A stretch of 52,124 bases of DNA from Cyanobacteria bacterium FACHB-63 (lineage in GTDB: Bacteria; Cyanobacteriota; Cyanobacteriia; Leptolyngbyales; Leptolyngbyaceae): assembly GCA_014695255.1 (NCBI GenBank), contig JACJNX010000029.1, positions 1 to 52,124 on the forward strand. The letters run 5' to 3'. The first letter of the stretch is position 1; every line of letters starts with the position of its first letter. Both the position numbers and the translations under genes were made by a program. The notes under the pieces are model-generated. The model was not told the origin of the DNA and did no database searches. It saw nothing but the letters and a program-made list of their open reading frames with translations. Positions 47,156 through 51,507 of the stretch are shown piece by piece.

Positions 47156-48307
47156 TCAATTTTGGCGATCGACATGAGGATCACTAAATGCCGGATTTTT
47201 CACAAAGGATTCATCGGTGATGCTGTGAAGGAAAGCGATCAGATCTTGCTTTTCACGATCGCTTAACTTAAACCCTTTCACAAATGAACTTTTAAGCGGA
47301 TTCTCGCTACCTACTCCCGTAAACTTACCCGCGTGAATCGTTCGACCTCCCGCCGCATAATGCTCGATTACCTGCTCTAGCGTACCAATACTGCCATCGT
47401 GCATATAAGGTGCAGTTAAGGCAATATTTCGCAAGGTTGGGGCTTTGAAACGTCCCATATCAGACGGCTTGAGAGTAATTTCGTGAATACCCGTGTTATT
47501 AGCAGGATAAGCACCTTTGTGATCGAGATTGTATAGACCAGTGTTATGGAAGGCAATCTCTTTGAAACCAGAACGGGAATGAACGGCGGAATCAGAAAAA
47601 TTAATTCCTCCGTGGCAATGAAAGCACTCCAATTTTTCACTTTCAAACAAGGCTTCCCCCCGTTTCGCAGCCTCTGAAATTGCTCGATCGTTCCCTCCAT
47701 AACGGTATTGATCGTAGGGCGAATTAAACGAAATCAGCGATCGTTCAAACGCTGCGATCGCTTTTGCCATTGTATTGATGCTGATTTCTTCAGATGCAGC
47801 AGCGAACAATTGACGGTACTGCGGATCGTTTCGCAGCATTGCAATAATTTCTGCTTCTTTGCCTGCCATGCCCATCTCGATCGGATGCTCTCCGAATAGC
47901 GGCACAAGAAGCTGCGTTTCTAGATCAGCCATGAGCGGATTTGCCCAAGTGAGTACCGAATTGTAAGCGACATTTGCTAAGCTCATCGCGTTTCGGGGAT
48001 GCGCCTCTCCGGTTGCACCGATCGACACCGATTTTTTCTCAGTAAAGGCGCGGGATTGGTCGTGACAGGTGGCACAAGAAAATTCACCCGTGACCGAAAG
48101 GCGCTTTTCATAAAAGAGATGCCGTCCGAGTTCGACTTTTGCAGCACTCATCGGATTGTTAACAGGCACGATCGGCAGTGGTGTCCATGCGGGAAGCTGC
48201 CAATCGTAGCTAGAGGTGGCATTGCTTCTAGAAAATGCAGCACTCAAGCCGATCGAAAGGCAAAAGGTGAGAAGCGTGAGAACCGCAAGGTTAAACCAGC
48301 GCTTCAT
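47156..48307 (-). CDS. mbnH: MbnH-like di-heme enzyme (MauG/cytochrome c peroxidase family)
   Basis: The 383-residue periplasmic enzyme has a signal/anchor segment (LAVLTLLTFCLSIGLSAAF) and two haem c motifs, CATCH at 78-82 and CFHCH at 228-232. The MauG/CcP family pattern includes RNAMSLANVAYNSVLTWANP, where Trp121 matches the inter-haem Trp, and APYMHDGSIGTLEQVIEHYA. In the metallo-mystery pair such an enzyme uses peroxide to oxidise a Trp of its partner MbnP to kynurenine. The ATG at 48307 overlaps the mbnP stop (ATGA), giving tight coupling; the frame is open further upstream to 48391 inside mbnP, but without a family-like N-terminus. Symbol is by family. Confidence 0.85.
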   Translation of the reverse strand: MKRWFNLAVLTLLTFCLSIGLSAAFSRSNATSSYDWQLPAWTPLPIVPVNNPMSAAKVELGRHLFYEKRLSVTGEFSCATCHDQSRAFTEKKSVSIGATGEAHPRNAMSLANVAYNSVLTWANPLMADLETQLLVPLFGEHPIEMGMAGKEAEIIAMLRNDPQYRQLFAAASEEISINTMAKAIAAFERSLISFNSPYDQYRYGGNDRAISEAAKRGEALFESEKLECFHCHGGINFSDSAVHSRSGFKEIAFHNTGLYNLDHKGAYPANNTGIHEITLKPSDMGRFKAPTLRNIALTAPYMHDGSIGTLEQVIEHYAAGGRTIHAGKFTGVGSENPLKSSFVKGFKLSDREKQDLIAFLHSITDESFVKNPAFSDPHVDRQN

Positions 48308-49185
48308 GGTCGCGGGGCAACTCGAAAGAACGTTTGACGGGCGGGTTTTCCAGCTTGAGGCAATCCAAAATTCGTCAGAATTGCAGTACAATCGCCGTCC
48401 TTAGGATCAGACATACAGCCAAGTCCAGTATCAGGCTGGTTCTTGGTCAAATTTGAGGTTGCCACTAGAGACTTAAGATCGGTAACAATGACGCTGTTTT
48501 GCGGGTTAAAGTTCTCAAACGTAATCGTTGCAGTATTCGGGTTTGCACAACTTTCTGGTTTTTGGCGATTGTTCGTGGCATTGCATCCGGTACTACCTAG
48601 ATGGATATTAAATCCCTGCTGTTTGTTGGATGAGTGGGGTTGATCGTGCTTCATTCCCGACATCGCCGGAGCAAAATCGATTCGAGCAAACTTATAGCCG
48701 CCTCTCCAGTTCCACCAGAGCGATGTGAGATTCAAAGGTGAAGGCGCGATCGTTGCATCTTCGTGATTGAGCTTAAACGGAACGCCCAACGTGAAGCGAA
48801 TTCCCTTGTAATTGCCTTTTGGAATCGTTCCAACAATACGATCGTTTGTCTCAGTCGTACCATTTGAACACATTCCGGTTTTATTTTCAAAATCGATCAG
48901 TGCAACGTTTTGGTATTGCCAGCGATTATCTTGAGTTAATGTAATGGGAACGACTTTTCCTTGAGCATCGATTAACGCTACATCTGAAACATAAAAGCGA
49001 AAATCAGCAGGAACAACAGAGGTTGCAGGCGTACCGAGTGAGTAAGTTGAATTACATTGAAACGATTGATCGCCAACCATTCCGCGAAATTGAATCGAAA
49101 CAGGCTGAGACGATTGAGCGATCGCACTTGGAATAGAAACCAGTAACGCGATCGCACCCCCAATCAAAGATAGCCGCAAGCTCAT
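48304..49185 (-). CDS. mbnP: MbnP-like secreted metal-binding protein (metallo-mystery pair, Cys motif)
   Basis: The 293-residue protein has a signal peptide (MSLRLSLIGGAIALLVSIPS, cleavage near AIAQ). The mature chain matches the MbnP family: FRFYVSDVALIDAQGKVVP, NDRIVGTIPKGNYKGIRFTL, LNLTSLWWNWRGGYKFARID and GFNIHLGSTGCNATNN. Cys residues at 44, 106, 201, 213, 257 and 266 include the family four-Cys motif, and His 141, 180, 184 and 195 are candidate ligands. The Trp cluster W157, W158, W160 includes the likely oxidised Trp. In methanotrophs MbnP binds Cu(I) through kynurenine. It is coupled to mbnH and lies 79 bases after the Nif3-like gene. Confidence 0.85.
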   Translation of the reverse strand: MSLRLSLIGGAIALLVSIPSAIAQSSQPVSIQFRGMVGDQSFQCNSTYSLGTPATSVVPADFRFYVSDVALIDAQGKVVPITLTQDNRWQYQNVALIDFENKTGMCSNGTTETNDRIVGTIPKGNYKGIRFTLGVPFKLNHEDATIAPSPLNLTSLWWNWRGGYKFARIDFAPAMSGMKHDQPHSSNKQQGFNIHLGSTGCNATNNRQKPESCANPNTATITFENFNPQNSVIVTDLKSLVATSNLTKNQPDTGLGCMSDPKDGDCTAILTNFGLPQAGKPARQTFFRVAPRP

Positions 49186-49264
49186 AACAAATCGAATTAA
49201 AACAAACTTCTCAACTCTAGGACAAGCACAACTCGGATTCAAAAGACGCGCTGTAAAACTTGGC

Positions 49265-49951
49265 TTATATGACGATCGTTCTCAACTCTGCCCAACGCTC
49301 CCGCAGTATCGCAGACAACGCCCGTAAACCCCACTGTTCACAGCGTCGATGCCCCACTTCAATCACACACATTCCCGTATCTAACACGGCTTGTTTAGCG
49401 GAAACACGAAACTGCCCGGTAATGTAAACGCTTGCACCTTGATTTGCTGCCGATCGAATCAAACCATCATTCATCGCCCCGACGATCGCAACTTTCCCCA
49501 CAGTATCCGCTTGTCCGAAGGCAGACTCATAACCCCCGAAAATCTCTCGCACCTGAACACAGTAGCGATCAAAACTTTGAGAGGGAACCCCTCCAATCAT
49601 GCCGATCGCTCGTTCTGCTTTGTATCCAAACGACTGCACGTTCACAAGCGATAATACATCTGCTAATTGCAAGTTGAATCCTAATGTCAACCGTTCATCG
49701 AACGCTAAATGATAAAATACGACACCAATATCAAGATTAGAATTAAGCTGCCAAGGACGATGTAAGAAGAGTGCATCAATTTGATTTTTTGTAATCCAGT
49801 AATCGATCTGCGGAATCGGTTCAAGTGCCAGTCCCAAACGACGAATTGGGCGATCGCTAACTCGATAAATTCCGCCTCGCTCCTCTTCAGGATACCGATC
49901 CACACTAAAGAAGCGATCGAGAAATTCAACCAGTGACTGCTGAGTAATCAT
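49265..49951 (-). CDS. Nif3-like dinuclear metal centre protein
   Basis: The 228-residue protein belongs to the Nif3/YbgI (GTP cyclohydrolase I type 2) fold family, toroid-forming metal proteins of uncertain function. The metal site motif normally reads HHP; here it is LFLHRPWQL, so one His is replaced by Arg. The C-terminal site VIEVGHRRCEQWGL keeps His and Glu. The chain is shorter than most. It overlaps the metallophosphoesterase stop by four bases, so the two are coupled. Confidence 0.78.
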   Translation of the reverse strand: MITQQSLVEFLDRFFSVDRYPEEERGGIYRVSDRPIRRLGLALEPIPQIDYWITKNQIDALFLHRPWQLNSNLDIGVVFYHLAFDERLTLGFNLQLADVLSLVNVQSFGYKAERAIGMIGGVPSQSFDRYCVQVREIFGGYESAFGQADTVGKVAIVGAMNDGLIRSAANQGASVYITGQFRVSAKQAVLDTGMCVIEVGHRRCEQWGLRALSAILRERWAELRTIVI

Positions 49952-51507
49952 GTCAGCACAATCGGATCAAGGGCGCGATCGTGCCACTGTCGCCTTGACC
50001 ACTCGGAAACATAAGGACGCAGAATAAACTTCACCGGATCATCTGCGGTGACATCAATCCTCACAAATGAGTAAGGGCGCTGTTTGTAAGCCCCCTGTCC
50101 GGTTCGCCCTACAAACAGTTGAGATTTAGCGACAATTCGCTCCTCTGAATCAATCTGCTCTGTAATCTCAGCTCCCTCTTCTCGCTGTCGCCGCAAACTA
50201 TAGCCGCTTCCCCCGCAGACCACCCAATTCATATTCGAGTCTGCGTGTCCAGTCTCTCCAGTCCGCAAATACTCAAAACAATGAGCATGACCATTCAGAA
50301 CCAGATCCACGATCGGGCGACCTTTCGGATCAATCTCCTTTGCCACATCATCGAGCACTTGCCGCAATCGATAGCGCACGGCTAAAGTTTGCGCCTGATA
50401 CCATTTCGTTGCCTCCGTCACATAAGGCGGATGATGAAAATAAACGACGCGCCCTCGCACTTCTGGAGATCGCCAAGACTGAACCAAGCGATCGCGCAAC
50501 CAATCTAACTGCTCATAATCGCTCTCAACACTCGTTTCCGCATTCAATTGTTTCTCAATATCAATCTGGATCTCTTCAAGCTGCTGCAATTTGACCCGGA
50601 TATCATCCGCTTGATCCGATTGTTCAGGTTCGTTAATATCAAGCCGAGAAATATCGACCATTAACTGCTGCATCTCTTGCTCGATCGCCGCACGTTGTTC
50701 GATTAACCGTCGCCGATCGGCTCGTCCTGCTTGACCTGTCGAAAGCGGGATCGGCTCATTAATCGTATTAGAATCGAGCGCAAAGAAATCAATCCCACCA
50801 TAGCGAAAGGTGTAGTAACGATTCGGCAATCGCGTGAACAATCCCGGTTGATACCGCAAGCATCGTCCGGTCGAGGTTTCAGCCGTGTAGTGTTGATCAA
50901 GATGCGCCGCTAATTTCCCATGCTGTTCTGCAACCGATAACAAATCCATGAACGCCTGCGCGAACGCTTTTCCCTGATGAGACCCATGAAATCGAATATC
51001 AAAATCAATCCGCGATTGTAGTAGTTTTCTAATCGGATAAGAGAGCTGTGAAAGAATTCCATAAACCAAAGGAAGATCATAATAATCATGATTTCCGAGC
51101 ACAGGCAAAAAGGGCAGATTAAACACCATTTGATTAAACGCAATCTGGCTCGGTGTTTCTCCTCCAACCAAAAACTCTCGATACGGCTCAATAAAATTCT
51201 GTGGATAAAACTCGCTAGAGCCAACCAGATAAATCACATCTCCGGTATGCAAAATAAAGCGAGATTCATCCCGGTGCGACAGCATTTGTTCTGCAATTCT
51301 GCGCTGAGGAAAATGTCCCGGATGCCGCCCAGATCCGCTATCCCCAATTACTAAGAATGAGAAAGCATCTTGCTCTTGATCGTCCTCGATCACTAATCGA
51401 GTTTGATCGATCCTGCGATCGATCACATTGGGTGTACGCCATTTCACGCGCTCCTGCATCTTTTGAATCTTGAGCGAGGTTGCCGGATCGGAAACGAATC
51501 TCATCAT
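49948..51507 (-). CDS. Metallophosphoesterase family protein
   Basis: The 519-residue calcineurin-fold protein has the metal motifs VIGDSGSG, LHTGDVIYLVG, VLGNHDYYD, YFHHPPYVT and LNGHAHCFEYL. An insertion at about 260-330 contains a helical, probably coiled-coil segment (RRRLIEQRAAIEQEMQQLMV). No signal peptide is seen, so it is likely cytoplasmic. It is the first gene of a minus-strand run with Nif3-like, MbnP and MbnH genes. Its substrate is unknown. Confidence 0.87.
   Translation of the reverse strand: MMRFVSDPATSLKIQKMQERVKWRTPNVIDRRIDQTRLVIEDDQEQDAFSFLVIGDSGSGRHPGHFPQRRIAEQMLSHRDESRFILHTGDVIYLVGSSEFYPQNFIEPYREFLVGGETPSQIAFNQMVFNLPFLPVLGNHDYYDLPLVYGILSQLSYPIRKLLQSRIDFDIRFHGSHQGKAFAQAFMDLLSVAEQHGKLAAHLDQHYTAETSTGRCLRYQPGLFTRLPNRYYTFRYGGIDFFALDSNTINEPIPLSTGQAGRADRRRLIEQRAAIEQEMQQLMVDISRLDINEPEQSDQADDIRVKLQQLEEIQIDIEKQLNAETSVESDYEQLDWLRDRLVQSWRSPEVRGRVVYFHHPPYVTEATKWYQAQTLAVRYRLRQVLDDVAKEIDPKGRPIVDLVLNGHAHCFEYLRTGETGHADSNMNWVVCGGSGYSLRRQREEGAEITEQIDSEERIVAKSQLFVGRTGQGAYKQRPYSFVRIDVTADDPVKFILRPYVSEWSRRQWHDRALDPIVLT

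Follow-up and report, generated by a model that had tools for sequence, protein, structure and literature searches.

What does an MbnP/MbnH pair do in an oxygenic phototroph whose genome holds no relative of MbnB? To our knowledge, no role has been assigned to pairs of this kind lying outside methanobactin operons. They were described in 2013 as "mysterious partners" (PMC3621798, GenProp0940), and that source calls their relevance unclear and places the isolated pairs of OB3b near TonB receptors. The pair considered here lies in a window of 52,124 nucleotides, the whole stretch of DNA that was analyzed, which is also an entire contig (C102) of a 7.2 Mb cyanobacterial host genome in 179 contigs.

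The gene pair and its proteins

The mbnP gene (48304..49185, minus strand) encodes a 293-residue, predicted secreted copper-binding protein of the MbnP family, and mbnH (47156..48307, minus strand) encodes a 383-residue di-haem MauG-like enzyme of the MbnH family. The first-pass annotation had proposed such a pair from the letters alone, and both genes proved to be full-length and far above the NCBIfam cut-offs. MbnP scored 312.1 bits with TIGR04052 (cut-off 140) and 155.1 bits with the Pfam model PF20243 (cut-off 27), which places the partner inside the MbnP family. MbnH scored 518.7 bits with TIGR04039 (cut-off 362.85) and reached 163.1 bits with the MauG model, under its cut-off of 443.85, so that the family models assign the enzyme to MbnH rather than to MauG. 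The closest solved chains in phmmer searches were 7l6g for MbnP (E 1.1e-39) and 6e1c for MbnH (E 2.6e-116). The two frames share four bases at 48304..48307 (minus strand), an ATGA stop/start overlap that couples mbnP to mbnH just as the annotation had stated.

In a profile search of the host genome, one MbnP and one MbnH were found over the cut-offs; weaker TIGR04039 matches on contigs C177, C44 and C115 all stayed under the cut-off. The MbnB/TglH/ChrH family (PF05114) had no match in the host genome. No metal uptake gene, and no TonB receptor, was present among the six neighbouring window proteins scanned with Pfam, and an Rfam scan of the window found nothing. The upstream neighbour, a DUF34/NIF3 protein (PF01784; 49265..49951, minus strand) about 80 bp from mbnP, is not thought to be part of the mbnP-mbnH system. 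This DUF34/NIF3 gene shares four bases with a gene for a calcineurin-like phosphoesterase, and the two together span 49265-51507, just upstream of mbnP and on the same strand.

The haem-binding motifs that the annotation had read in MbnH, CATCH at 78-82 (C78, C81, H82) and CFHCH at 228-232 (C228, C231, H232), are present as described and invariant across 23 MbnH sequences, including H82 and H232, and the inter-haem W121 is nearly invariant in the same set. In one relative (L035:759-1958), Arg replaces this Trp. An alignment of 26 MbnP sequences showed H141, H195, W89, W158, W160 and six Cys residues, the basis of the description of MbnP as Cys-rich, to be invariant. The WWNW cluster corresponds to W157, W158, N159 and W160. 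Among the three Trp residues that had been put forward as possible substrates, W157 is unlikely to be the oxidised residue because, unlike W158 and W160, it is not invariant, being Phe in a second class of the phylum. The WxW, two-His and Cys pattern of MbnP is thus conserved, with putative copper ligands among these residues.

An AlphaFold2 model of MbnP, built from the 26 aligned sequences, reached a pLDDT of 86.4. In a fold search with this model, six 7l6g chains matched with E <= 7.7e-24 and a TM-score of about 0.8, and the next match had an E of 0.08, leaving the MbnP chains (7l6g) alone below 0.001. Neither MopE nor CorA was among the best 50 fold matches listed for the model, and a sequence search of solved chains at E <= 1 returned 7l6g alone, with no match to MopE or CorA. 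The families, the gene order, the fold, the His/Trp/Cys pattern and the inter-haem Trp are those of the Methylosinus trichosporium system (7l6g and 6e1c). The present system differs from it in having no MbnB relative in the genome, in its PetR-type box and in its oxygenic phototroph host, and the cyanobacterial MbnPs in the tree form a well supported clade of their own.

Distribution, decay and phylogeny of the pair

The MbnP family was found in a minority of the genomes searched. TIGR04052 matched in 14 of 292 genomes across the phylum, 12 of them over the cut-off, and in 48 of 388 genomes of one order, 45 of them over the cut-off. The 48 mbnP genomes used in the cross-tables below take in three decayed copies under the cut-off (G022, G245 and G588), the partial match of G588 being the same as that of locus L037. 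For comparison of gene neighbourhoods, we used a set of 49 loci, consisting of the window and 48 fetched loci, both decayed copies included. In this set, mbnP was followed by mbnH on the same strand at 44 loci; the five others comprise two at contig edges (L100, L108), the two decayed loci (L037, L038) and one, L115, whose 14 kb of retrieved sequence holds no mbnH. In L038 (6981-7721), a deletion has linked the beginning of mbnP directly to the central part of mbnH, with the PetR-type box still in place; in L037 (7312-7812), mbnP has lost its inner part, no mbnH lies in the 15 kb fetched and the box is likewise retained. The pair can thus be dispensed with, and its occurrence is patchy.

Among the best 80 of 346 relatives, the nearest named ones were Pseudanabaenaceae cyanobacterium LEGE 13415, at 75% identity, and Leptolyngbya sp. 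Prado105, at 67%. In an MbnP tree comprising 88 proteins, the 71 oxygenic-cyanobacterial sequences, including that of the window, formed one clade (support 98/96, with the bootstrap not fully settled and a long outgroup branch), and the proteobacterial MbnPs stood beside it. One genome of the second class of the phylum (G038) has three MbnP genes, two of which flank an MbnH gene (L033:5401-8590, L039:6962-7867). LEGE 13415 has two MbnP genes (L180, L193), each in a different subclade of the cyanobacterial sequences. The cyanobacterial-looking locus L198 comes from a contig with the title Candidatus Gracilibacteria, which is probably mislabelled or from a mixed bin; the locus was counted as cyanobacterial because its MbnP sits inside the cyanobacterial clade.

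A PetR-type box before mbnP and at copper-switched genes

Comparison of the regions upstream of mbnP yielded the box AAGTTTGACAGCYTGTCWTTTGACA. In the window it occupies 26 bases at 49236..49261 (minus strand), 76 bp before the mbnP start. A classic TACA-N2-TGTA operator before mbnP was rejected, a one-mismatch scan for it having given scattered matches only. Because a matrix made from the nine mbnP sites would have been circular, we scored the box with a matrix of 26 distinct sites from genomes without an mbnP match, calling sites above 5 bits. This training set was obtained from 34 boxes by removing three atypical ones (L154, L155 and L160), one further site (L156), repeats and one cut-off context. 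L156 was left out since its genome, G311, carries mbnP elsewhere on that contig; with L156 as the 27th site, the counts were the same, and the window's box scored 26.8 with the next best place at -0.4. With the 26-site matrix, the mbnP box (26.1) was by far the top place in the entire window, the next one scoring -0.2.

The box was found before mbnP at 39 of the 49 loci, among them the window and the two decayed copies. In named cyanobacteria, a set that overlaps the 49, it was found at 45 of 70 loci. It was oriented towards mbnP in 37 cases out of 39 in the first set and in 41 out of 45 in the second. Control sequences exceeded 5 bits in 0 of 70 cases when reversed and in 2 of 700 when shuffled, and no box was found at ten proteobacterial mbnP loci or at six loci from the second class of the phylum. 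At the operon level the count rose to 43 of 49, with the box before the same-strand upstream gene at three loci (L030, L099, L100) and about 360 bases up at another (L105). Six of the 49 loci had no box near mbnP even at this level, among them L104, whose stretch starts inside a broken-off mbnP frame and for which the negative comes from scanning the whole locus. Among the named cyanobacteria, 25 of 70 loci had no box within 300 bases of the start; every upstream stretch was kept whatever its length, that of L180 being 118 bases. In the two nearest relatives of the window, the box lies at -73 and -77 and has an identical GAATC end.

The third repeat of the window's box, TTGAAT (49237..49242, minus strand), is a putative -35 element, followed after a 17 bp spacer by a putative -10 element, TAGAGT (49214..49219, minus strand), with four of six consensus bases. 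The same arrangement, defined as a third repeat in the -35 place and a hexamer with at least 4 of 6 -10 bases at a spacer of 15-19, was present at 35 of the 39 sites, compared with 1574 of 4900 positions drawn at random from those stretches.

The identity of the presumed regulator is suggested by the genes that share the box. In Synechocystis, the BlaI-type PetR and the BlaR1-type protease PetP form a copper switch (PMC7896320), in which PetR at low copper represses petE and activates petJ (PMC7896320, PMC13421787, PMC12292863); PMC7896320 gives the regulon as four proteins only. The host genome has a BlaI-type gene 72% identical to the query (C141:65288-65701) and, beside it, a gene for a PetP-like protein with 47% identity. 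PetR genes, assigned by family, mostly single copy, neighbouring protease and promoter company, were found in 318 of the 388 genomes. With at most one mismatch allowed, the box occurred in 273 of the 318 genomes with PetR (2.07 sites each) and in 16 of the 70 without it (0.30 each), whereas the reversed control pattern occurred in 49 of 318 (0.17 each) and 18 of 70 (0.36 each). The box is therefore at the control level where PetR is missing. The Fisher p of this association is 1.4e-24, which overstates it because the genomes are related, and PetR was present in 47 of the 48 mbnP genomes (p 0.001), both counts being over related genomes and not over independent events. The one mbnP genome without a PetR match, G070, has mbnPH with a variant box. 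In genus g15, which holds Tychonema, Microcoleus and Lyngbya isolates, mbnP was found in 8 of 9 genomes with PetR and in 0 of 20 without it; since petRP and mbnPH are adjacent there, much of this co-occurrence may be due to the loss of both in one deletion.

The genes next to the box, named mostly by eye or by likeness to Pfam-scanned proteins, point in the same direction. In 12 mbnP genomes searched with at most one mismatch, the box was found before petJ-like genes at three loci (L124, L127, L140), twice in the petE-petJ intergenic region of L135, and before a cydA-like gene (L141), a receptor-like gene (L132) and other genes. At eight loci it preceded an operon with a DsbD_2/ferric-reductase-like membrane protein. 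This operon often holds a small exported-looking protein without a Pfam family, and its members are possible copper-handling genes. In genomes without mbnP, the box stood between petR and petJ at five loci (L170, L172-L175), beside petE at one (L161) and before receptor-like genes at four (L158, L159, L162, L163). At eight loci it adjoined petR, and the opposite side held a different gene or no gene. At L165 and L166 (about position 1500), it lies between genes that by eye look like exbB and tonB, which suggests that in some cyanobacteria the TonB energy system, too, is under the control of the copper switch. In the host itself, neither petR nor the petJ-like gene was seen to have a box before it. 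The host petE promoter has the 16-base core TTTTACAGCCTGTCGT, without the third repeat, 56-71 bp before the start codon; because this core has 5 exact matches in the host genome and its reversed control 11, the match is telling by its place only.

Because the box tracks PetR and adjoins petR, petJ and petE, we predict that it is a PetR operator. A box of some other regulator, answering to iron or general metal starvation and correlated with PetR through shared ancestry, would fit the variant box of G070 and the feoAB, cobalt transporter and siderophore-type receptor genes that lie near several pairs. We regard it as improbable, since the box adjoins petE, occupies the region separating petR from petJ, and follows PetR over 388 genomes, and since its GACA-N3-TGTC core presumably resembles the operators of BlaI and CopY. 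We conclude from these promoter comparisons that mbnPH is a predicted member of the PetR regulon in most of the examined cyanobacterial genomes that carry it.

Neighbouring genes and a proposed role of the pair

In some related genomes, the neighbourhood of the pair contains the putative copper switch itself. In seven g15 genomes, mbnP is divergent from a BlaI-family regulator gene followed by a BlaR1/M48-like protease gene, and at an eighth g15 locus (L104) the protease alone is visible beside mbnP. In L027, the regulator matched PF03965 and the protease PF01435, with an M56 (PF05569) match under its cut-off. At two g39 loci (L026, L082), regulator and protease are also near the pair, with feo genes in between. 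Genes for cytochrome bd, identified by similarity to L027 proteins, occur near the pair in two families, at four loci (L027, L029, L089, L092) and five loci (L030, L037, L038, L083, L087), respectively. One cluster of TonB-receptor-like proteins is represented near the pair at seven loci; those of L097 and L099, which were scanned, are AMIN-plug-barrel TonB receptors, and in both cases receptor, mbnP and mbnH are consecutive genes of one strand, separated by short gaps. At a distance of one gene from mbnP, L086 and L100 have a cytochrome c6-like gene, which is divergent in L086 and on the same strand in L100. Separately, a metal-uptake-like cluster of DUF1636, TonB receptor, DUF7676 and periplasmic binding protein recurs by the pair (L028:10626-15526, L037:8400-13294).

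The first-pass annotation had suggested a stand-alone copper role for the pair and, as one outlet, the supply of plastocyanin. The former is now supported by independent genomic evidence that was unavailable to that reading, namely the PetR-type box and the neighbours of the pair in related genomes. The latter was not supported as a special role. At a match threshold of E <= 1e-15, petE was found in 271 of the 388 genomes, in 35 of the 48 with mbnP and 236 of the 340 others (p 0.74), so it is not enriched with mbnP, and in genera g15 and g39 none of the ten genomes that carry mbnP had a petE match, the Microcoleus-Tychonema group having mbnPH and PetRP all the same. For these reasons the pair is better seen as serving general copper acquisition.

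Taken together, our preferred reading, to which we assign a probability of about 0.7, is that mbnP and mbnH form a two-gene unit for copper acquisition within the PetRP copper-starvation regulon, with a box geometry like that of the activated gene petJ. When copper is short, the protease PetP would be idle and PetR would accumulate, bind the box before mbnP and switch the operon on as it does petJ. Activation is proposed because the box is shared with petJ, adjoins a -35-like element and keeps starvation company. Both proteins, to judge from their relatives, would be exported, and MbnH, by means of its two haems, would oxidise one of the conserved Trp residues of MbnP (W158 or W160). The resulting kynurenine, together with H141 and H195, may form a Cu(I) site. 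This part of the proposal draws on work on relatives and on the invariant residues; in the study of MbnP and MbnH from methanotrophs, a Trp was reportedly oxidised to kynurenine and Cu(I) was bound. The loaded MbnP would then hold or carry copper in the periplasm or outside the cell. In several species it probably works with a co-regulated TonB receptor, and the hand-over of copper between the two is speculative.

The box geometry and the company of the pair also bear on a different direction of control. If the pair were a periplasmic copper buffer or detoxifier for copper excess, PetR would repress it as it represses petE, and the box or its core is indeed found at petE as well. However, the mbnP boxes mostly aim at mbnP and their third repeat coincides with the -35 element as at petJ, and the genes at the boxes and loci are starvation genes, namely petJ, cydAB, TonB receptors and feoAB. 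Secreted or surface proteins with a di-haem partner and low-copper expression are known in MopE/SACCP and CorA/CorB, according to PMC3621798 and to abstracts, and production of these functional analogues at low copper likewise argues against a buffer, which we hold to be quite unlikely. A redox or structural purpose of the modification, with copper incidental, is very unlikely given the invariance of H141, H195, W158 and W160 and a box shared with copper-switched genes, although copper is not known to have been measured on any cyanobacterial member of the family.

As a copper-acquisition unit, MbnP/MbnH would work by analogy with MopE/SACCP and CorA/CorB, which have a copper site of kynurenine and two His; PMC3621798 reports no marked sequence similarity of MopE and CorA to MbnP. 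The present pair shares with the stand-alone pairs of GenProp0940 its position outside methanobactin operons and adds to them a box common to copper-starvation genes. The PetRP system, as far as its cited descriptions go, has the same BlaI-type PetR, BlaR1-type PetP and targets petE and petJ as here, and the putative regulon proposed here extends the known one by mbnPH, receptor-like genes, cydA and the DsbD_2/ferric-reductase-like operon. Both families, and their occurrence apart from methanobactin operons, were already known; it is the predicted control by a PetR-type box that is new. Among the literature matches listed, which did not cover the primary PetR and MbnP papers, no title or abstract opening connected MbnP or MbnH with cyanobacteria or with PetR.

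These elements can be combined into a broader scheme of protein scavenging run by PetRP, which we offer tentatively and consider rather doubtful as a whole. MbnP, armed with a kynurenine by MbnH, would be a "protein chalkophore", secreted to deliver copper to a TonB receptor under the same control, the DsbD_2/ferric-reductase-like operon would be its periplasmic helper, and petJ and cydAB would spare copper. In the Microcoleus-Tychonema group, which has no plastocyanin match, such scavenging would be the reason why PetRP was kept.

An operator shared with the copper switch of oxygenic phototrophs would give MbnP/MbnH pairs a role. The analysis also offers a proposed sequence for the PetR operator and a wider putative PetR regulon that takes in the receptor-like genes, cydA and the DsbD_2/ferric-reductase-like operon, and this wider regulon would supply candidate genes for copper uptake across the cyanobacterial outer membrane.
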